48,083 nucleotides of DNA from Armatimonadota bacterium (lineage in GTDB: Bacteria > Armatimonadota > UBA5829 > DTJY01). Location of the stretch: positions 1 through 48,083 of the forward strand of contig JANYKG010000126.1 in NCBI GenBank assembly GCA_025358205.1, read 5' to 3'. The notes below the pieces were generated by a model, which was given only the letters and a program-made list of their open reading frames with translations, was not told where the DNA came from and did no database searches. Positions 11,214 to 21,529 of the stretch are shown here, in pieces (positions within the stretch are counted from its first letter, which is position 1; every line of letters begins with the position of its first letter). A program made the translations under genes and the position numbers.

Positions 11214-12467
11214 CTAGGCTGCCAGTTTTTCGAGGTTCTTCTCGGTTCGCACGCAGTTCTTGCCGGCGTTCTTAGCGACGTACAAAGCCCGGTCAGCGCG
11301 TGATATCAGGTCATCATCAGCGACCCTGCGGTGAGACTCCGCCACGCCGATGCTAACCGTGAATGAGAACTCCCGGGCAGCGGGTTCGCCCTGATAGAGG
11401 TATCGCCTGGATGCCACCGTCTCGCGAATGCGCTTTGCCACCCTTAGAGCATGACGCAAGCTGGCGTTAGGCAGCATGATGGCAAACTCATCGCCGCCAT
11501 AGCGCGCTATAATGTCGGTCTTGCGCAAGACGCCCATCGCCTCCCGGACGAACATTTGCAATACCACGTCGCCGGTCTGGTGCCCGAATGAATCGTTAAT
11601 GATCTTGAAATCATCTATATCGCACATTAGCAGCGAAATGGGCTTTCCACCTACCTCGGCCGCCACCAGGGATGACTTGTACTCAACATCAAAAGACGAT
11701 CTGGTGCATGCGTTGGTGAGAGTATCCGTGGCGACGGTCTGTTTGAACTGGTGCAGATTGGCGTCGAGGGTCTTCACCTCTTTTGACAGCGCTTCGATAC
11801 GTTGGTTGTCTGCTTCCTGCTTAGAGTGCAGCGCCGTCCTCATGGTTTCGACTTCCGTGTGCAGAGCATCACGCATCTGTCGGATGTCTTCCAGTTTGAT
11901 GATGGATTCGATACGGCTGTGCTGCTCGTGGACCTGAGTGTTAAACGTCCGATTCTCGCCCAGCATGTTCGTAATGACCGATTTGAAGTAGTCAAACATG
12001 CTCTTGAACTCTGCTTCGCGAGTATAGATATACTCCCTCTCCTGCGCCGTGAAGGTGATGATATCAGTCTTGCCTTTGCCAAACACCTTCTCGAAGGTGT
12101 TTGGCGAATGGGCTTTGTTGAGCGCAGACACCATACTGTCCATGCGTTCTTTGAACCCGTCTGCGTCAATATCAGGGAGGTCAAAGGTGAAGTCTTTGAT
12201 CAGATAGCACAGGACGCGCATGCATGATAACATCATGTCGTTCTGATCGCGAGATGAGGTGACCAAGCCGGCGAGTTGCTCCGGAGTGAGTTCGGCCAAT
12301 GGCAGTTGCGGTCTAGAGCGTTTGAACATGTATTGCATCCCAAAAGACTTGATACTATAGTTTTTCCATGTTCCGACGAGAAACCCCAGTACTATTTCCA
12401 GTAAAAAACCAAGGTACACGCGGGCCTGGGGCAGCGCATAAACAGGCTGTTCGTTGATAGTAGTCAC
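11214..12467 (-). CDS. Diguanylate cyclase (GGDEF), possible N-terminal membrane segment
   Basis: 417 residues from a GTG at 12467, or about 369-372 from an internal ATG (MQYM, near 12335). A C-terminal GGDEF domain (about 250-410) has the intact motif GGDEF at 324-328, and a product-inhibition I-site R315-K-T-D318 exactly five residues before it. It is therefore predicted to make c-di-GMP with feedback inhibition. Residues about 60-240 are a helical domain with a coiled coil, shared with the paralogue at 12548-13675. Residues 17-35 (YLGFLLEIVLGFLVG) could be a membrane anchor, but the ribosome site for the GTG is poor and the paralogue lacks this segment, so the true start is uncertain. Confidence 0.9.
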   Translation of the reverse strand: MTTINEQPVYALPQARVYLGFLLEIVLGFLVGTWKNYSIKSFGMQYMFKRSRPQLPLAELTPEQLAGLVTSSRDQNDMMLSCMRVLCYLIKDFTFDLPDIDADGFKERMDSMVSALNKAHSPNTFEKVFGKGKTDIITFTAQEREYIYTREAEFKSMFDYFKSVITNMLGENRTFNTQVHEQHSRIESIIKLEDIRQMRDALHTEVETMRTALHSKQEADNQRIEALSKEVKTLDANLHQFKQTVATDTLTNACTRSSFDVEYKSSLVAAEVGGKPISLLMCDIDDFKIINDSFGHQTGDVVLQMFVREAMGVLRKTDIIARYGGDEFAIMLPNASLRHALRVAKRIRETVASRRYLYQGEPAAREFSFTVSIGVAESHRRVADDDLISRADRALYVAKNAGKNCVRTEKNLEKLAA

Positions 12468-12547: not shown

Positions 12548-13675
12548 ATGCTGTTCCGCAAAACCCGATGTAAGGTTTACGAAGAAATGTCCCCCAAGCA
12601 GATTGCTGAAGTTGCTGAGTCATACAAAGATCAGTCCAATTACTTGCTTTCCTGCTTGAGACAGCTCGCTTACCTCATGAAGGAAGCCACAATCGAGTCC
12701 CCTGAGATTGATTCGGACGGTTTCCGAAAGCGCGTTGATGATATGGTCAACGGTTTGGACAAGGCCGAGACCACAAGGGACCTGCAGAAATCCTTCGATG
12801 GCGGCAAGGAAACAATGATTGCCTTCATCAAAAAGGAAAAGAAGTACTTTGAGGACAAGGACGGCGAGTTAAAGAAGCTCATTGACTTCCTCCGCTCCAC
12901 ACTCACCAGCGTGATGGGAGAGAACCGCTCGTATAATGGAGAACTGTATGAGCAGAACCTGCGCATTGGTAAGCTGACCGAACTGGACGACATCCGCAAG
13001 ATCAAAGAGTCGCTGAAGGCGGAAGTTGCGACGATGCAGAAGACCATTCGCGCCAAGCAAGAAAATGAAGAGGCGCGCGCGAACAAGCTGGCCCGAGAAG
13101 TGGCGTTGTTGCGCAACAGCCTGGAAGAATACAAAGGCGCGGCGATGACCGATCCGCTTACGAAAGCGTCGAATCGTCTAGGTTTCGACACCGACATCAG
13201 AAGATGCGTGGAAGAAGCTGAGTTGCAACGTCGTCCGCTGTCTCTGCTGATGTGCGATATTGACGATTTCCGCAGCTTCAATACGCGCTACGGACACCAG
13301 GCCGCAGACGTAGTGTTGCAGGTGTTCGTGGCGAAATGCAAGGCTGCGCTGAGAGAGCCTGATATTGTGGCCCGATATGGTGGGGATGAGTTTGCGATCA
13401 TTCTGCCCAATACTAAGCTGAAGGAAGCGGTGCGAGTGGCGCAGAGAATATGCCAGACCATCGCCTCCAACAGCTACGCATATGAAGGCCAAAACACGAA
13501 AACAGAATTCTCATTCACATGCACCATCGGGGTTGGCGAAAGCCACAAGCGTGACAAAGCCACCGCCATAATAGAGCGCGCGGACAAGGCCATGTACGTG
13601 GCAAAGAACGCCGGCAAGGGCTGCGTTCGAAGTGAGAAAGACATTCTGGAAGAAACCCAGGCCAAAGCCGCCTGA
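12548..13675 (+). CDS. Diguanylate cyclase (GGDEF), soluble paralogue
   Basis: 375 residues, starting at ATG after GGGAG. It is the same architecture as the divergent neighbour: residues about 20-200 are a helical, coiled-coil domain with shared motifs (DQSNYLLSCLRQLAYLMK, EIDSDGF, VMGENRSYN, DDIRKIKESLKAEV), followed by a GGDEF domain with GGDEF at 278-282 and an I-site R269-E-P-D272. It should synthesise c-di-GMP. It has no membrane segment. The two genes look like an old inverted duplication; the conserved N-terminal domain probably senses a shared signal or partner. Its ligand is unknown. An intrinsic terminator follows. Confidence 0.92.
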   Translation: MLFRKTRCKVYEEMSPKQIAEVAESYKDQSNYLLSCLRQLAYLMKEATIESPEIDSDGFRKRVDDMVNGLDKAETTRDLQKSFDGGKETMIAFIKKEKKYFEDKDGELKKLIDFLRSTLTSVMGENRSYNGELYEQNLRIGKLTELDDIRKIKESLKAEVATMQKTIRAKQENEEARANKLAREVALLRNSLEEYKGAAMTDPLTKASNRLGFDTDIRRCVEEAELQRRPLSLLMCDIDDFRSFNTRYGHQAADVVLQVFVAKCKAALREPDIVARYGGDEFAIILPNTKLKEAVRVAQRICQTIASNSYAYEGQNTKTEFSFTCTIGVGESHKRDKATAIIERADKAMYVAKNAGKGCVRSEKDILEETQAKAA

Positions 13676-14858: not shown

Positions 14859-14872
14859 CGAACAGATGTTCT
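14859..14872. promoter_or_regulatory. Candidate LexA (SOS) box upstream of the phage cassette
   Basis: CGAACAGATGTTCT matches the Gram-positive-type LexA operator (CGAAC-N4-GTTCG) at 13 of 14 defined positions, with perfect GAAC/GTTC arms. It lies 22 bp before the portal start and overlaps a plausible promoter (TTGGTA at 14846-14851, TCTATA at 14870-14875, 18-bp spacer). GAAC-N4-GTTC is expected by chance about once per 65 kb, so the position, not its presence, is the argument. A GGTGCG-caa-CGCACC hairpin sits just upstream (14824-14838). Confidence 0.6.
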
Positions 14873-14894: not shown

Positions 14895-16142
14895 ATGAAT
14901 ATGAATCTGGCGGAACGGATCAAGAACAGTTTTGGCGGGCGTAAGCCGTTGCTGGAGGAAGTCGCACCGGCGCAGGCGACTCTGGCGGGAGGCGCGCTGA
15001 GGCATGGCGGCTACTCGTCGGATGATTTGGCATCGCGCAAAGGGCTGGCCGTGTATGACGAGATGCAGAGAGATGCCCAAGTGCGGAGCTGTCTGAATAC
15101 GAAGAAATTTGCGGCGCTCTCTCGCGGATGGGATGTCCGGCCTGCGAGCGATGATCCGAGGGACGTGGAGATTGCCGGGTTCGTGAAGCACTGCCTTGAG
15201 GAGATGCGCGGGTCCGTTCAAGATGTGCTGTTCAAGGTTCTGGACGCGGTGGCGAAGGGATTCTCGATCTCGGAAATCAACTACGTGATTCTGACGGACG
15301 GGCCGTATGCGGGAATGATCGGCCTTCAGTCAATCAAGTCGAAAGACCCGGCGGCGTTCGGGTTCGACACGGATGAGTACCTGAACATTCGTGCGCTGGT
15401 CCATCACGGCGCGGGTGAGCGAACTCTGCCGATTGAGAAGTTTATCCTCTACACCTACATGCCGTCTTACGAACTGCCGCATGGACAGTCGGACCTGCGG
15501 GCGGCCTACAAGCACTGGTGGAGTAAAGAGATCATCCTGAAATTCTGGAACATGTATCTCGAGAAATTCGGTATGCCGACCGCGAAGGGCGCATTCAGGC
15601 GCGGGATGCCCAAGGAGCAGCAGGACGAACTGCTGCGGGTGCTGGACAAGATGCAGCAAGAGACCGCAATCGTGGTGCCGGAGGACGTGTCGGTGGAACT
15701 GATGGAGGCTCAGCGCGGCGGTGAGGCAGGCTATCGCGATGCGGTGGAGCATCACAACCGGCAGATCGCAAAGGCGATACTCGGACAGACTCTCACCAGC
15801 GATGAGGGTTCCAGGGTCGGCTCACTGGCGTTGGGCAAGGTGCATCAGGATGTGCTGGGCTTCTATCTGGAGAAGCTGAAGCGCGACCTGGAGGAGACGG
15901 TGATGCAGGAGCAGGTGATCCGCAGGCTGGTGGACTTGAACTTCAGTGGCAGCGTGTCGCCGACTTCAGAAAGATGCCGGCAAGCTGCTGGCGCTACCGG
16001 TTACCCGCGGTTCACTCTCGGCAGCCTGCAGGAGCGCGACACGGCACAGCTAGGCGATCTGGTCGGCAAGCTGATTGCCGGTCAGGTGGTTTCGCCGGAC
16101 GAGCAGTGGATACGCGAGTACCTGGGAATACCGGCGGGATAG
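14895..16142 (+). CDS. Phage portal protein, DUF935 / Mu gp29 family
   Basis: 415 residues, starting at ATG after GGGGGAGG. The order YDEMQRDAQVRSCLNTKKFAALSRGWDV, FSISEINYV, RTLPIEKFILYTYMP, YGxSDLRAAYKHWWSKEIILKFWNMYLEKFGMPTAKGAF, QQETAIVVPEDVSVELMEAQRGGEAGYRDAVEHHNRQIAKAILGQTLTSDEG is that of Mu-like portal proteins. The portal forms the dodecameric ring at one capsid vertex through which DNA enters and leaves. The usual neighbours, terminase large subunit (gp28) and gp30-like minor head protein, are not seen on either side. It is first in a run of head genes. Confidence 0.9.
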   Translation: MNMNLAERIKNSFGGRKPLLEEVAPAQATLAGGALRHGGYSSDDLASRKGLAVYDEMQRDAQVRSCLNTKKFAALSRGWDVRPASDDPRDVEIAGFVKHCLEEMRGSVQDVLFKVLDAVAKGFSISEINYVILTDGPYAGMIGLQSIKSKDPAAFGFDTDEYLNIRALVHHGAGERTLPIEKFILYTYMPSYELPHGQSDLRAAYKHWWSKEIILKFWNMYLEKFGMPTAKGAFRRGMPKEQQDELLRVLDKMQQETAIVVPEDVSVELMEAQRGGEAGYRDAVEHHNRQIAKAILGQTLTSDEGSRVGSLALGKVHQDVLGFYLEKLKRDLEETVMQEQVIRRLVDLNFSGSVSPTSERCRQAAGATGYPRFTLGSLQERDTAQLGDLVGKLIAGQVVSPDEQWIREYLGIPAG

Positions 16143-16230
16143 ATGAGGGAAATGGTCTTATGGTCAGACGGTCAGTGATCCAGCGTCACAACAACCCGTT
16201 GCTCGACATTTGAGGTGAGAGGAGGACTTA

Positions 16231-16665
16231 GTGCAAGAACAGATTCTGTTTGAGTTGGATTATTCGGCGGACGAGATGTCCGTTGAGAAAGAAGCCAAGA
16301 TCTTTGAGGCCGGGGAGTATCCGGACAAGGAGATCACCGTCACGGAGGACGATCTGGATGCCATAGTCGGCAACTTCGCGGGGGCGCCGGTGAAGGTGGA
16401 GCACACGGACAGCCCGCTTGATCCGCTCGGCACGGTGAAGTCGGTGTGGCGGAACGGGCGCGATCTGTTTGCCAAGCTCGCGTTTCCGAAGGATCTGGCA
16501 GCGTTTCTGGAGCGGCGCGGCGTGAAGAAGCTGAGTGTGGCTCTGTGGAAGGACCCTCTTCGGCTGGCGGAGGTTTCGCTGGTGCTTGCGCCGAGGGTTC
16601 CATCCGCATCAATTTTCGGGCAAGCTGATCCACAATCCGCAATCCGCAATTTGGAAAGGTGGTGA
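16231..16665 (+). CDS. Prohead protease (Mu gpI-like)
   Basis: 144 residues from a GTG start preceded by GAGAGGAGG. The sequence shows the short prohead-protease pattern: FEAGEYPDKEITVTEDDLDAIV, then VKVEHTDSPLDPLG with the likely catalytic H58, and VKKLSVALWKDPLRLAEVSLVLAPRVPSA with the likely catalytic S102. Such proteases cut scaffold and capsid protein during head maturation. In Mu the protease continues directly into the scaffold; here it stops and a separate scaffold gene overlaps it by 7 bp. The last residues (PQSAIRN) are encoded by a ccgcaat direct repeat, which suggests repeat insertion split or capped the gene. Confidence 0.75.
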   Translation: MQEQILFELDYSADEMSVEKEAKIFEAGEYPDKEITVTEDDLDAIVGNFAGAPVKVEHTDSPLDPLGTVKSVWRNGRDLFAKLAFPKDLAAFLERRGVKKLSVALWKDPLRLAEVSLVLAPRVPSASIFGQADPQSAIRNLERW

Positions 16666-17036
16666 ATGAGAGCATGAGCGACCAGGAAAAAGAGATACAG
16701 GAACTGAGGTTCGCGCTCCGGGCGAAGGATGTTGACGTGAAGCTCGCAGACCTGAGGACACAGGGCAAGATCGTTCCCGCGTCCGAGGCGTTTGCGAGGG
16801 AACTCCTCATGCGCGGTGACAGCATGGTCACTTTCGGGGACGAAGAGGTCAGCATAGCCGGGCTGTTCGAGCGGTTTCTGCTGAGCCAGCCAAAGGTGAT
16901 CTCGTTTCATGAGATGGCGCCTGCGTCCGGCGAAGAGGAAAGCGGGCCGCTTTCCGCCGAGGAGCAGAGGCTTCTGTCCAAGCTGGGCATAAGCCGTGAG
17001 CAGATGCAGCGATATGAGAAGAAGTTGAGCGTGTAA
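16659..17036 (+). CDS. Scaffolding protein (C-terminal gpI/Z-like)
   Basis: 125 residues from GTG at 16659; an ATG at 16674 is also possible. It is acidic and helical, opening with a coiled coil (SDQEKEIQELRFALRAKDVDVKL). It continues with LRTQGKIVPASEAFARELLMRGDSMVTFGD and LFERFLLSQPKVISFHEMAP, a pattern found at the C terminus of Mu-like protease/scaffold proteins. It should act as an internal assembly core for the procapsid and be removed by the protease. It overlaps the protease stop codon (translational coupling). Confidence 0.65.
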   Translation: MVNESMSDQEKEIQELRFALRAKDVDVKLADLRTQGKIVPASEAFARELLMRGDSMVTFGDEEVSIAGLFERFLLSQPKVISFHEMAPASGEEESGPLSAEEQRLLSKLGISREQMQRYEKKLSV

Positions 17037-17064
17037 ATCGGCGTTCAGAGAAAGGGGCTACGGA

Positions 17065-17484
17065 ATGACAGCAACCACGACAGACAGAGATTCCAGGCGC
17101 AGTGACGGCGCGCTGAAGTGCATGAAGATGGCAGCCGTCAAGATTCCGAAGGGCGTGCTGGTGTGCGTGAACACAACCGGCTATGCGACGAACGGCGCGG
17201 ATACCGCGAGCTTCCTATTCGGCGGTGTGAGCTATGAGCAGGTGGACAACTCCGCTGGTTCGGCCGGCGACAAGGAGATTCGTGTCGAGAAGAATGGCGA
17301 ACATACGTTCGTATACGGCGCAGGAAATGCGACTCAGGCGTCGGTCGGCAAGGAAGTCTGCATCACGGATAACCAGACCGTTGACGATGCTGCGACCACG
17401 ACGAATGACGTGAAGTGCGGCGTAATCGCGGAGGTCGTTAGCGGCAGCCTGGTCCGCGTGCGGATAGATAACTACACGAGATAG
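17065..17484 (+). CDS. Probable capsid decoration protein
   Basis: 139 residues, with ATG at 17065 after AAAGGGG. It is small, glycine-, threonine- and valine-rich with predicted beta strands (IPKGVLVCVNTTGYA, KEIRVEKNGEHTFVYG, CGVIAEVVSGSLVRVRIDNYT), lying directly between the scaffold and the major capsid gene, where DUF2190-like head decoration proteins usually sit. The family call rests on size, composition and position. It would bind the outside of the expanded head and stabilise it. Confidence 0.6.
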   Translation: MTATTTDRDSRRSDGALKCMKMAAVKIPKGVLVCVNTTGYATNGADTASFLFGGVSYEQVDNSAGSAGDKEIRVEKNGEHTFVYGAGNATQASVGKEVCITDNQTVDDAATTTNDVKCGVIAEVVSGSLVRVRIDNYTR

Positions 17485-17572
17485 ATGAGTGATACGTGAC
17501 CTGCTGCATAAGGCTTGGCAGACTGGTTCACGCTTCACTTGTCACTCATCACGGATGAAAGGAGTTCAGAAA
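17485..17572. repeat. Repeat-bearing gap with TGAGTGA/TCACTCA inverted repeat
   Basis: The 88-bp gap before the capsid gene holds ATGAGTGATACGTGAC and, inverted near its end, GTCACTCATCAC, a hairpin-forming pair. It ends in the capsid gene's AAAGGAG. This is one of several repeat-like gaps inside the phage cassette. Confidence 0.45.
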
Positions 17573-18478
17573 ATGGCAATTGTTAAGTCCGATATCCCTC
17601 GGCTGTTGGAAGCCGGGTTGCGAACGGTATTCTTCGAGGCCTACGAGGCCGCGCCCAGCGACTGGCAGCGCATAGCCACGGTAGTCCCCTCGGAGCATGA
17701 CACCGAGAAGTACGCGTGGCTCGGCTCCACCCCGCGAGTCCGCGAGTTCAAGGACGAGAGAGTCCCTGCCGGGCTGTTGGAGCACGACTTCTCGATTCGG
17801 AACAAGACCTGGGAGGCGTCCATCGGCGTGGACCGAAGCGCACTGGAAGACGACGAGTACGGCCAAATAAAGCTTCGTGTGCAGGAACTGGCGCAGGAGG
17901 TCAAGCGGCATCAGGACGAGTTGGTCTTCAGCCTGCTGAAGGATGGCTTCACGTCGCTGTGCCACGATGGTCAGTACTTCTTCGATACGGACCATGCCGA
18001 GGGCGACTCCGGCACTCAGGGCAACAAGGGCACGGCTGCTCTATCTGCAACAGCGCTTCAGACGGCCTTTACCTCCATGATGAAGATCAAGGACGACAAG
18101 GGTAAACCCATGGCCATCGTGCCGGATACGCTGGTGGTGCCGCCCGATCTGAAGTGGACCGCAACCGAGCTGCTGGAATCCGTCTACGCGCCGGAAGTGG
18201 TGAGCGGAAAGACCGACACCAGGCGCAACGTGCTCTCCGGGGTTGTGGAGCTGATCGTCAACCCGTACCTGACCGATACGAACGATTGGTTCCTGCTCAG
18301 CACTCGCAGGATCGTGAAGCCCATGATCTTCCAGTCGAGGATTCCCGTGGAGTTCGCCGCGCTAGAGGCCAATTCCGAGGGCGGATTCATGCGCGACCAG
18401 TACGTGTACGGCGCGCGGGCACGGTACAACGTGGGCTACGGGCTGTGGCAGCTCGCGTACGGCAGCCAGGTAGCATAG
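17573..18478 (+). CDS. Major capsid protein, Mu gpT family
   Basis: 301 residues. The ATG at 17573 is set by AAAGGAG 8 bp upstream. Conserved stretches of the Mu gpT head subunit (PF10124) are present: FFEAYEAAPSDWQRIATVVPSEHDTEKYAWLG, REFKDERVPAGLLEHDFSIRNKTWEASIGVDRSALEDDEYG, a DGQYFFDTDHAEGDSGTQGN segment, and VELIVNPYLTDTNDWFLLSTRRIVKPMIFQ with QYVYGARARYNVGYGLWQLAYGS at the end. It has a HK97 fold and forms the icosahedral shell. The length is normal and the reading frame intact, which argues against simple decay. Confidence 0.92.
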   Translation: MAIVKSDIPRLLEAGLRTVFFEAYEAAPSDWQRIATVVPSEHDTEKYAWLGSTPRVREFKDERVPAGLLEHDFSIRNKTWEASIGVDRSALEDDEYGQIKLRVQELAQEVKRHQDELVFSLLKDGFTSLCHDGQYFFDTDHAEGDSGTQGNKGTAALSATALQTAFTSMMKIKDDKGKPMAIVPDTLVVPPDLKWTATELLESVYAPEVVSGKTDTRRNVLSGVVELIVNPYLTDTNDWFLLSTRRIVKPMIFQSRIPVEFAALEANSEGGFMRDQYVYGARARYNVGYGLWQLAYGSQVA

Positions 18479-18605
18479 CGGAGGTTTCGGGTGACGGGTT
18501 TCGGGTGTCAGGGCAAAAGTAGCCCGACGAGTCTGACATGACGGAGTGGGCTTAGGCCCCCGGAACCTGGCACCTGGCACCCATAACCGATTCAGGAGGT
18601 ACCCC
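18479..18605. repeat. Dispersed repeat, shared with 38230-38303
   Basis: The gap contains GGGTGACGGGTTTCGGGT followed by a GTCAGG...CTGAC pair and a tail of ggcacctggcaccc type. A related copy fills the gap between the ABC permease and metK genes. A perfect AGGAGG site for the next gene is at its end. Confidence 0.6.
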
Positions 18606-19043
18606 ATGGCAATCACAATCACCCGGGCAGAGGTGAAGCGCAAGTGCATGATATCTTCATCCGACACCACTTGGGACACGGATGCGGACGCGCTCATGGC
18701 CGAACTGCAGCCGAGCATTGAGTACACCATCGCCGATCAGTATCTGAACGACACCGCGAACACAAAGCTGCAGGCCGTTCTGAAGCTGGGCATTCTGGAG
18801 ATGGTCAGCGGTGAGCTGTTGCAGCAGATCTACCGCACGGCAGGCGCGTCGGAGTCAGTCAGCGTCGGCGGAGTCAGCCTGGGCGTGCGTCAGGAACACG
18901 GCGCGAAGCTGATAGACCAAGGCGTGGCGAGGTTGAGACCGTTCCAGAAGTTGACAGACGGACTGACGGACGAGGCTGTCATCGCTACTAACGCGGACAA
19001 TCGGGAGCGCGAGTTCTCATCCGCGAGCATGGAGGGCTGGTGA
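18606..19043 (+). CDS. Head-completion / head-tail connector protein
   Basis: 145 residues, ATG set by AGGAGG. It lies just after the capsid gene, where gp6/DUF1320-like head completion proteins sit. It is helical at the N terminus (DADALMAELQPSIEYTIADQYLND, LGILEMVSGELLQQIYR), followed by GVSLGVRQEHGAKLIDQGVARLRPF, a pattern of DNA-channel adaptor proteins. It would attach under the portal ring and prevent DNA leakage. Its stop overlaps the next start (TGATG). Confidence 0.65.
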   Translation: MAITITRAEVKRKCMISSSDTTWDTDADALMAELQPSIEYTIADQYLNDTANTKLQAVLKLGILEMVSGELLQQIYRTAGASESVSVGGVSLGVRQEHGAKLIDQGVARLRPFQKLTDGLTDEAVIATNADNREREFSSASMEGW

Positions 19044-19348
19044 TGGCAAGCTACAAGAAGCGCGTGACCGAGCAGATAGACCTGCACGGCGAGGATTTCC
19101 TGGTCAACGGAACCGCTGCCGCCAAGGGGTTCTTCATGCTGATGGACCTCACGCGCCTGAACACCTACTTCAACAGCTACGAGCAAGCTGGTCTGACAAA
19201 GCCGGCGCTCTCGCTGCAGGTGGCGGCGGACACATCGCTGGAGATTGACGACACTGTTGACCGCGACGGGCGCACCTACACCGTCGCGCGGCTGACCCAG
19301 TACAGAATCCACGGCGAGATCGTCCTGCAGACCGCTGTGCTGACCTAA
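19043..19348 (+). CDS. Head-tail joining protein-like
   Basis: 101 residues starting at ATG within the upstream TGATG overlap. It is beta-rich: SLQVAADTSLEIDDTVDRDGRTYTVARLTQYRIHGEIVLQTAVL resembles the small beta-barrel head-tail adaptors (stopper proteins) of siphoviruses and Mu-like phages. Coupled translation with the preceding connector supports a shared complex. It is the last gene that would link to a tail, yet no tail gene follows; the next gene encodes a lysis-type protein. The exact family is not identified. Confidence 0.5.
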   Translation: MASYKKRVTEQIDLHGEDFLVNGTAAAKGFFMLMDLTRLNTYFNSYEQAGLTKPALSLQVAADTSLEIDDTVDRDGRTYTVARLTQYRIHGEIVLQTAVLT

Positions 19349-19371
19349 CGGCCACCGGACAAATTCTGAAC

Positions 19372-19428
19372 TGTAGCCGCAGGCTTCATGCCTGCGTGGT
19401 AAGCGCACCCGTAAAGGGTGCGGCTACA
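19372..19428. repeat. 57-bp palindromic element with two inner hairpins
   Basis: Outer arms TGTAGCCGCA (19372-19381) and TGCGGCTACA (19419-19428) are perfect 10-bp inverted repeats. Inside are CGCAGGC-ttcat-GCCTGCG and CGCACCC-gtaaa-GGGTGCG. This is a REP/MITE-like design of the kind scattered through bacterial chromosomes. It sits in the gap between the head-joining and holin-like genes. Confidence 0.75.
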
Positions 19429-19464
19429 GGCTTAATCCGATCCCTGCTGGTGGGAGGCAAGCAG

Positions 19465-19707
19465 ATGACAAACAGAACGGCGACACGTGATGCGGATGTG
19501 GGCGCTCGGCTGGCGGTGATAGAGCAGAAGATCGAGACGGTAATCGAGGAACTGGCGGCGATACGCGAGTACATACCCGGCGCAATGATCCAGCACTCTG
19601 AGAAGATCGCCGTACTGGAGCGAAATGCGCGAACTGCTCAGTGGCTTGGCGCGGCGCTGGCGGTGGCGCTCATCGGCTCGTTTCTGGGCCATGTACTCGG
19701 ACGTTGA
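19465..19707 (+). CDS. Small coiled-coil membrane protein, XhlA/holin-like
   Basis: 80 residues. The start at 19465 is set by GGGAGGC; the upstream in-frame codons lie in a repeat. An N-terminal helix (about 12-55: ARLAVIEQKIETVIEELAAI...HSEKIAVLERNAR) forms a coiled coil and is followed by one C-terminal membrane segment (WLGAALAVALIGSFLGHVL). This is the layout of the XhlA family, which helps holins permeabilise the inner membrane for endolysin release. A lysis role is supported by the holin and endolysin genes 0.4-1 kb downstream. Confidence 0.65.
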   Translation: MTNRTATRDADVGARLAVIEQKIETVIEELAAIREYIPGAMIQHSEKIAVLERNARTAQWLGAALAVALIGSFLGHVLGR

Positions 19708-19725
19708 CAAGAAGGAGGCTGGACA

Positions 19726-20082
19726 ATGCTAACTGCGGCAAACGAAAAGACAAGGATGATCCAGGAGGTGACGGCGACGGCTCAGGGCGAGCTGCTCGGC
19801 GCGGAGCGGGCGGCTCAAGTGGCGTTCGTAGACGCACTGAACCCCATGCCGCTCACCGGGCCGTGCCGCTGCCTGGGGATCATGCTCTTTGGGGGCGAAG
19901 TAGAAAATGCGAATCTGAGGGTGATGGACGGCGGCAGGAGCGTTCCTCTTATGGAGATATTCTCAAGCTCCGGGTGGTGGGATAGCTTCATCATGCCGCG
20001 TGGGGTAGCAAGCTCCGGGAACCTCGTCATCACCATAGGTGGTACCGGGGCATACGGATATGTCTACTACCTGCCGGAATAA
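19726..20082 (+). CDS. Small beta-rich protein A, unknown, paralogue of the protein at 20922-21272
   Basis: 118 residues, starting at ATG after AAGGAGG. No known family recognised. N-terminal MLTAANEKTRMIQEVTATAQGE is followed by a beta-rich body (TGPCRCLGIMLFGGEV, NLRVMDGG, NLVITIGGTGAYGYVYYLPE). Protein B has the same outline: MITA, an IQE-like region, AT..GE, GP...GM, YY near the C terminus. Such small beta sandwiches are often decoration or receptor-binding proteins. It lies between the XhlA-like and holin genes. Function is unknown. Confidence 0.7.
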   Translation: MLTAANEKTRMIQEVTATAQGELLGAERAAQVAFVDALNPMPLTGPCRCLGIMLFGGEVENANLRVMDGGRSVPLMEIFSSSGWWDSFIMPRGVASSGNLVITIGGTGAYGYVYYLPE

Positions 20083-20107
20083 CGGAGACTAAGAAGGAGA
20101 ACCAATC

Positions 20108-20422
20108 ATGCACAAACACGATCTTTGGCAGTTGATACCCTACGTCCTGCCTATTCTGTCATACATCATCGGCACGTCACGGAACAAGCTGCGCGTGCCG
20201 GACCGGATTCGCAAACTGCTGGAGAACAAGCTGGTGGTGGACACGGTCGTCAACGGAGTGCAGGCTGCTCAGTCTATGAAGCAGATGACCGACGAGCAGA
20301 AGCGCGAATACGTCCGCGCATGGGCGAAGTCCGAGCTGTACGGCGTGCTGGGCGAGTGGCTGCCGGACTCCGCAGTGAACTTCCTGATTGAGCACGTAAT
20401 CGTCAAGAGCAAGGGGGCGTAA
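20108..20422 (+). CDS. Holin, LLH-like
   Basis: 104 residues, starting at ATG after AAGGAGA. One N-terminal membrane segment (LIPYVLPILSYIIG) is followed by a charged helical part: VDTVVNGVQAAQSMKQMTDEQKREYVRAWAKSEL...LIEHVIVKS. This matches the LLH-type phage holin layout: one membrane helix, an EK-rich helix and an IE..V..K ending. It would form inner-membrane pores that let the endolysin reach the wall. It abuts the endolysin start exactly (TAA then ATG). Confidence 0.65.
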   Translation: MHKHDLWQLIPYVLPILSYIIGTSRNKLRVPDRIRKLLENKLVVDTVVNGVQAAQSMKQMTDEQKREYVRAWAKSELYGVLGEWLPDSAVNFLIEHVIVKSKGA

Positions 20423-20821
20423 ATGAACGGTTTGGACCCCGATTTCCGGCGCAGGCTGGATGCATTTGAGGAGTCACTCAGGCGGCGCGGAGTTCAGGTG
20501 CGAATGGTCTGCGGCTACCGAAGCGTGGAAGAACAGGAACGACTCTACGCGGTTGGGCGTACCATGGCGGGCAGCGTGGTCACCAAGGCGCGCGGTGGGT
20601 TTTCGTGGCACAACTACGGGTTGGCCGCGGACTATGCCTTCGTGGTGGACGGCAAGCTTTCATGGGAAGGCCCGTGGCGCACGTTCGGCCTGGTAGCCAG
20701 GACATGTGGACTGGAGTGGGGCGGCGACTGGAAGCGGTTCCCGGACCGCCCGCATGTGCAGTGGCGCGGCGGCAGGACGATTGCCCAGATGCAGCGGTTG
20801 GCGAAGAAGCAGGCGGAGTAG
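20423..20821 (+). CDS. Endolysin: L-alanyl-D-glutamate peptidase, M15 family
   Basis: 132 residues, ATG immediately after the holin stop. It is an M15C peptidase (CwlK / T5 endolysin-like): VRMVCGYRSVEEQERLYAVGR, then SWHNYGLAADYAF with zinc ligands H63 and D70, and DRPHVQW with H111. These form the zinc site and cut the L-Ala-D-Glu bond in peptidoglycan peptides. There is no signal peptide, consistent with holin-dependent release. All catalytic residues are intact, so the lysis genes appear functional. Confidence 0.9.
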   Translation: MNGLDPDFRRRLDAFEESLRRRGVQVRMVCGYRSVEEQERLYAVGRTMAGSVVTKARGGFSWHNYGLAADYAFVVDGKLSWEGPWRTFGLVARTCGLEWGGDWKRFPDRPHVQWRGGRTIAQMQRLAKKQAE

Positions 20822-20829
20822 TGGGAACC

Positions 20830-20895
20830 TGGGAGCGCACTTGTCTTCACGTGCATCCCTTCGGAAAGATGCGGGTGAGGATACCCGCGCTCCCA
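20830..20895. repeat. 66-bp REP-like element with 9-bp terminal inverted repeats
   Basis: TGGGAGCGC (20830-20838) and GCGCTCCCA (20887-20895) form perfect ends, and GCGGGT-gaggat-ACCCGC lies inside. A second partial copy is at 21488-21529, sharing cctgggagcgca, gcatccc and tcggaaaga. It fills the gap between the endolysin gene and protein B. Confidence 0.75.
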
Positions 20896-20921
20896 TCATA
20901 CAATCAACCAGGAGGAATAAC

Positions 20922-21272
20922 ATGATCACGGCATCGCATCGTTTGACGAAGAAGACTCAGGAGATACTGGCGACCGGGAACGGCGAGGTGCTCACCTTCC
21001 CGGCGGCTGCAAAAGCGCTGGCTCTGACGGACACTGCCACCATAAACGGGCCGATCTACTTCATAGGCATGCTGGTGGTGTGCGGCACCGAATCAGGACA
21101 AATGAACGTGACGGCGGACGGCAACCTCGTCTTCGCGTGTAAGGTGGTCAGCGCGGGAACGGTGGATTGCAGGCTCCTGCAGTTCCCCGTGTACTGTCCG
21201 ACCGGCGTGACGTGTACGAAGCTGTTCGGCAACGGCGCAACGTTCGTGCTCTACTATGTGGAGGCGGTTTGA
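20922..21272 (+). CDS. Small beta-rich protein B, unknown, paralogue of the protein at 19726-20082
   Basis: 116 residues. The ATG at 20922 is set by AGGAGG. No known family. MITASHRLTKKTQEILATGNGEVL, then a beta body (INGPIYFIGMLVVCGTE, MNVTADGNLVFACKVV, FPVYCPTGVTC) ending FVLYYVEAV. The N-terminal third and the GP...G(I/M) and final YY positions line up with protein A, so the two are probably an old duplication. It is the last gene of the cassette, before a terminator. Candidates include virion decoration or an immunity or release factor; nothing decides between them. Confidence 0.65.
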   Translation: MITASHRLTKKTQEILATGNGEVLTFPAAAKALALTDTATINGPIYFIGMLVVCGTESGQMNVTADGNLVFACKVVSAGTVDCRLLQFPVYCPTGVTCTKLFGNGATFVLYYVEAV

Positions 21273-21487: not shown

Positions 21488-21529
21488 CCTGGGAGCGCAT
21501 GTGGCCTCACATGCATCCCCTCGGAAAGA
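21488..21529. repeat. Second partial copy of the cctgggagcgca repeat
   Basis: This copy shares cctgggagcgca, tcac, tgcatccc and tcggaaaga with 20828-20869 but not the distal GCGCTCCCA arm. It directly follows the terminator stem. Confidence 0.65.

Follow-up and report, generated by a model that had tools for sequence, protein, structure and literature searches.

The 48,083-nucleotide contig JANYKG010000126.1 of an Armatimonadota bacterium (assembly GCA_025358205.1; GTDB lineage Bacteria; Armatimonadota; UBA5829; DTJY01) carries, at positions 14,895 to 21,272, a cassette of phage-type head and lysis genes. Together with a gene for the large terminase subunit (terL) on another contig of the genome, this cassette is probably a domesticated, vertically inherited phage system for head formation, packaging and lysis, one that would be SOS-inducible, would function like a gene transfer agent (GTA) and is possibly tailless. 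By anatomy and inheritance the element is GTA-like, as far as sequence allows it to be read. The window discussed below is the whole contig, labelled C151 in the source genome G000; G, L and C numbers are labels of the genomes, loci and contigs compared, and f1 to f5 are host families within the source class, G000 belonging to f1.

An earlier note on this DNA had described the genes from portal to endolysin as intact and in order, and profile matches (PF06074, phrog_976, phrog_1731, PF10124, PF13539) bear out that they are present, ordered and open. The features of the cassette are as follows.

14860..14871, strand not set: LexA-type box GAACAGATGTTC, ending 23 bp ahead of the portal start; one of the 13 sites of its pattern in the genome.
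16231..16665, plus strand: prohead protease, corresponding to the N-terminal half of what is a protease-scaffold protein in relatives (phrog_976 1e-6; columns of H58 and S102 conserved).
14895..16142, plus strand: Mu-type portal protein (PF06074 3e-76; phrog_113 2e-84), with orthologues in relatives and a ratio of nonsynonymous to synonymous substitution rates (dN/dS) of 0.045 there.
16659..17036, plus strand: scaffold, the C-terminal half of the same protein of relatives (PF10123 2.5e-4; phrog_976 3e-6).
17065..17484, plus strand: head decoration protein (phrog_1731 3e-24), found in nearly all loci.
17573..18478, plus strand: major capsid protein of the Mu gpT family (PF10124 4e-79; PDB relatives 8rkc and others, 3e-63), occurring phylum-wide.
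18606..19043, plus strand: helical connector, an adaptor by position only; conserved across the phylum, with no PDB or phage-adaptor match.
19040..19348 (start 19040/43), plus strand: predicted stopper or head-closure protein (AlphaFold predicted local distance difference test, pLDDT, 94.8; Foldseek neighbours mostly phage stoppers and connectors).
19396..19707 (start maybe nearer 19466), plus strand: protein with a coiled coil and a membrane helix, a possible holin or lysis accessory (phrog_1193 "hemolysin" 0.0017; homologues in 12 loci).
19726..20082, plus strand: small protein of the variable-slot family described below, a possible head-surface protein; homologues lie between capsid and connector in G002 and G004, with no library match.
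20108..20422, plus strand: holin-like protein (phrog_608 holin 0.006), conserved in family f1.
20423..20821, plus strand: M15/VanY-type endolysin (PF13539 5e-11; dN/dS 0.07).
20922..21272, plus strand: small protein of unknown kind whose N-terminus resembles that of the 19726 protein; no library match.

Alignment with relatives placed the capsid start at the ATG at 17573, not 17489, and set that of the helical connector at 18606. Two connectors had been claimed in the earlier note, and the second stands: a high-confidence model predicts a stopper or head-tail connector, whose Foldseek neighbours in the PDB are mostly the stoppers and connectors of T1, SPP1, R4C, Douge and lambda, with probabilities near 1 and E-values of only 0.007-0.07. 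The first is helical and matched no known adaptor, and that identity was rejected for want of support by PDB sequence, fold or profile. The two genes called holin-like are likewise present, but the matches behind both names are weak.

The detached terminase provides the first line of evidence for the GTA-like reading. A PHROG terminase search of G000 gave a single hit, on contig C109, where a full TerL (PF03237/PF17289; G000:C109:9080-10447) stands solitary between two host-type genes. Its orthologue is present in most genomes of the class, directly upstream of the portal gene in many members of f2 to f5 and on another contig in f1, and a small helix-turn-helix protein, the small terminase subunit (terS), is encoded directly ahead of it in nearly all relatives. 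Since the sister families hold terS and terL directly upstream of the portal gene, terL has moved away in the family of G000. The suggestion that this might be a GTA-like locus with its packaging genes elsewhere is thus supported by a lone terL that is preceded by a separate LexA-type box and has diversified in parallel with the head genes. The other suggestion of that note, a capsid-and-lysis system loaded with something besides phage DNA, would be compatible with these data too.

The second line of evidence comes from these boxes. When all 4.08 Mb of G000 were scanned for the pattern GAAC-N4-GTTC (GAACRNRYGTTC), 13 distinct sites were found, six of them within 100 bp before a credible gene start; these precede the portal gene, terL (where GAACATACGTTC lies 75 bp upstream), a dinB operon, a DinG/YoaA helicase, an Amidoligase_2 protein and a 330-amino acid protein that is DUF1848-like by eye. 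The pattern is not enriched overall in G000, the reversed control having more sites, and therefore it is the placement that constitutes the signal: by our own arithmetic, 13 sites would put a box within the 100 bp before one named gene with a probability of about 3e-4, falling to about 1e-7 for two such genes. Across the class, 7 perfect boxes occur in 21 regions upstream of terL, most of them just before terS, against 0.20 expected and a maximum of 3 in 2000 shuffles. LexA itself is present in G000, and its recognition region, as we take it, reads like that of Bacillus subtilis LexA; upstream of lexA there is only a one-mismatch site, GAACATCCTTTC. From these positions we infer an apparent LexA control of both the portal operon and terL. 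The Amidoligase_2 protein (L310, G000:C94, box at 55877) has its box 30 bp before the start and may belong to the same regulon. A different sequence, GTCTTATAATTATGG, upstream of terS in f3 and f5, was considered as a private promoter and rejected, as several copies in some genomes (31 in G018) stand before unrelated genes. The conserved element around it lies at position about 1500 in L377, L357, L369, L360 and other class relatives, precedes terS in f3 and f5, and in G018 is partly an inverted repeat (TTGTTGTC...GACAACAA).

Selection and inheritance point in the same direction. In the comparison of G002 with G004, portal and capsid have dN/dS values of 0.045 and 0.049, the endolysin 0.07 and the other core genes 0.03-0.13, with 0.42 for the short holin-like gene; purifying selection acts on the core cassette genes. 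In the capsid, portal and TerL trees every multi-member host family forms one clade, except f3, from which the long-branched G013 and G021 stray in some trees. Over all groups the label changes number 11, 8 and 9 for capsid, portal and TerL, respectively, where the minima are 10, 8 and 9 and shuffling gives means of 28.6, 15.3 and 16.4, co-inheritance having been tested against host-family labels and not the full host tree. The TerL and head-gene trees share this pattern although the genes are unlinked in f1. Exchange with phages may have occurred around f1, given that the capsid tree places L178, an uncultivated phage contig, with that family.

The distribution of the element is broad and its gene order recurrent. 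A Mu-like gpT capsid gene is present in 25 of the 28 genomes of the source class, nearly always as a single copy, with identities of 76% within the family falling to about 50% at the class limits; of the 255 Armatimonadota genomes covered by a phylum-wide search, 111 have it (92 of the 194 good ones), clustered by family, and named records with related capsid genes include Fimbriimonadales, Chthonomonadaceae and HRbin16 genomes. In the class, terS and terL come first and are followed by the portal, protease-scaffold, decoration and capsid genes; after a variable slot come connector and stopper, then small genes for membrane proteins and lysis, with host genes beyond. In other classes the core of protease, decoration, capsid, an optional small gene, connector and stopper is often kept, with portal and terL relocated. 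The cassette is no stray prophage piece. A second gpT capsid in G006 (L037, G006:C68), 51% identical and in a different gene setting, is possibly a true prophage.

Two regions of the cassette vary in an instructive way. The slot between capsid and connector holds unrelated-looking proteins of 73 to 1005 amino acids, several of them alike at the N-terminus, which might be candidate head-surface or recipient-binding proteins; the slot protein of L178 matches a head-decoration family. Three of the slot proteins, of 346-1005 amino acids, have no library matches (L044 5915-8932, L048 10510-11550, L049 8023-9081). In the lysis slot, f1 combines a holin-like gene with an M15 peptidase, and in f3 the same place is taken by another small membrane protein and an endolysin of the Amidase_3 type; because the lysis enzyme has been replaced by a non-homologous one, this suggests that the lysis function itself is under selection.

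The surroundings of the cassette agree with what the earlier note had claimed. The flanking genes belong to the host (a CPF_0552/TM1266-type regulator, rpsT and rex), and the neighbourhood examined, from about 8 to 28 kb in the window, showed neither a terminase nor tail genes, an integrase or a phage repressor. An assembly break or window edge was rejected as the cause: the window is the whole contig, the cassette lies intact and well away from both contig ends, and relatives have similar boundaries. The guanine and cytosine content of the cassette shows no clear difference from its surroundings. The spacers at 19370-19432, 20828-20869 and 21488-21529 contain repeat-like sequences that recur elsewhere in G000 (89% over 63 bases with L307; 86% between 20828-20869 and 21488-21529), and they look as if the cassette had long belonged to the host chromosome. 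Upstream of it, at 11214-12467 (minus strand) and 12548-13675 (plus strand), lies a divergent pair of similar genes that are diguanylate cyclase-like, with a GGDEF-type motif by eye.

Several observations weigh against a functional GTA-like system, and one of them concerns the tail. A search for the sheath family PF04984 and two tape-measure families, PF10145 and PF20155, found none in G000, which is 97% complete, nor in 16 of the 25 capsid-bearing genomes of the class, while known GTAs have tails. Matches elsewhere in the class are patchy and away from the cassette; in G006, G008 and G023 the contig with the sheath or tape-measure match also holds a separate weak terL-like match, a picture that fits ordinary prophages or contractile systems. 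A short, unusual or too-diverged tail is possible. The earlier note had held that a terminase and tail module close to the cassette in relatives would count against its proposal: the terminase half is what sister families have, in that terS and terL adjoin the portal gene, but a tail module beside the cassette was seen in no member of the class. In G000 no terS lies between box and terL, and only a weak match exists elsewhere (C92, 2e-5); on this gene content G000 appears to have lost or replaced terS, and the working of its own element is therefore uncertain. Protease and scaffold, one open reading frame in relatives, are two overlapping ones in G000. In-frame stops occur once each in portal and capsid of G004 (L034 6642-7865, 9325-10275) and once in the capsid of G015 (L043 9293-10273), reflecting either real inactivation or assembly error. 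The box, finally, is absent in most f3 genomes, some of which have no detected LexA, and none precedes the cassette in 14 kb of upstream DNA from other classes.

How far do these points favour other explanations? If the capsids were triggered by the SOS response without gene transfer, with packed cargo or lysis serving altruistic suicide, nutrient release or a storage compartment, the want of a tail for DNA delivery would pose no difficulty, and the lysis genes and LexA-type boxes would be accounted for. We consider this unlikely: a plain compartment or a device for suicide would have no need of portal, TerL, terS and stopper, whose conservation across the class implies DNA packaging. That the loci are decaying relics of Mu-like prophages, stripped of tails and replication genes, seems quite improbable. 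Such decay would explain the missing tail, integrase and replication genes, the split protease and absent terS of G000, and the stops in G004 and G015; the earlier note had named frameshifted copies in relatives as evidence against its own proposal. Broken copies do exist, but many others are intact, and relics would hardly show the same gene set across families at such low dN/dS, one copy per genome with trees that follow host families, and LexA-type boxes retained on unlinked units. A mobile satellite, or an active phage with its other parts elsewhere in the genome, is very improbable, since the small head module with lysis genes and the tail-type genes of L178 that might suggest it are set against a cassette with no integrase, replication or regulatory genes next to it, a dispersal of the parts across the chromosome and trees that follow the hosts.

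The GTA-like reading can also be set beside known systems. GTAs are defined by tailed-phage-derived proteins that form tailed-phage-like particles, package mostly random host DNA and deliver it to other cells; they are endogenised, often in several loci, cannot fully package their own genome, and are mostly inherited vertically, co-diversifying with their hosts (PMC9662315). The present element has portal, capsid, protease and TerL homologous to phage proteins, lies in two loci (cassette on C151, terL on C109) that are each between host genes, and gives trees that recover host families. With RcGTA-like elements, Bartonella BaGTA and Brachyspira VSH-1 it shares genes for head, packaging and lysis that derive from tailed phages, a spread over several loci, a single copy per genome and mostly vertical inheritance with co-diversification. 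It differs from them in its Mu gpT-type head, in the LexA-type boxes directly before both units, in the lack of a recognisable tail and in belonging to the phylum Armatimonadota, and its packaging of host DNA and its transfer are predictions.

Portal, protease-scaffold and capsid are of Mu type, homologous to those of Mu-like phages such as Faecalibacterium phage FP_Mushu and Pseudomonas phage LPB1 and in the same order. Those are complete tailed phages, whereas the cassette has no tail, transposition or replication module and its terL has moved; no transposase, integrase, replication or tail modules were seen around it in the window or the class loci. Among isolated phages the best match reaches 41.5% identity over the capsid. 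L178 (IMGVR_UViG_3300033405_000949), which may be the nearest relative among phages, has a capsid 66% identical, more phage-type genes after the adaptor and a different terminase. The 45.5-kb prophage of Fimbriimonas ginsengisoli, also phage-derived and of the same phylum, differs in being an excising prophage with recombinase, primase and helicase (PMC4072686); that genome paper makes no mention of capsids or gene transfer agents. In the open literature we found no paper describing a GTA in Armatimonadota, one candidate containing both terms having been left unopened.

The GTA-like element would most likely operate as follows. On DNA damage LexA would leave the boxes before the portal operon and the unlinked terL, so that head, portal, packaging motor and lysis genes would be made together. 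Heads would assemble on the scaffold and be matured by the protease, and TerL would fill them through the portal. The load would most likely be host chromosomal DNA, as the element was found to contain nothing able to replicate it or to package it as one unit. Connector and stopper would then close the filled heads, and lysis would release the particles. Entry into recipients with no detected tail might, as a guess, involve capsid-surface proteins and a DNA-uptake system. The full proposal of a tailless GTA, in which damage-induced, DNA-filled and stoppered Mu-type heads are freed by lysis, bind recipients through variable capsid-surface proteins, deliver DNA by tail-free uptake and have been kept across several classes, is a tentative one that we would sooner doubt than accept.

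GTAs have been verified experimentally in a few lineages, and their prevalence beyond the Alphaproteobacteria has been raised as a question in a recent review (PMC11841831). The Armatimonadota element has the look of a type of gene-transfer particle not recorded before. If this is true, it would represent an independent domestication of a GTA in the Armatimonadota, spanning several classes, apparently under direct control by LexA and lacking any recognisable tail. Two questions would become testable with it: can a GTA function when it has no tail, and is the benefit for which cells are selected to package their genome on DNA damage one of repair, of exchange or of help to kin? The related capsid records from Fimbriimonadales and Chthonomonadaceae indicate that cultivated relatives may permit such experiments.

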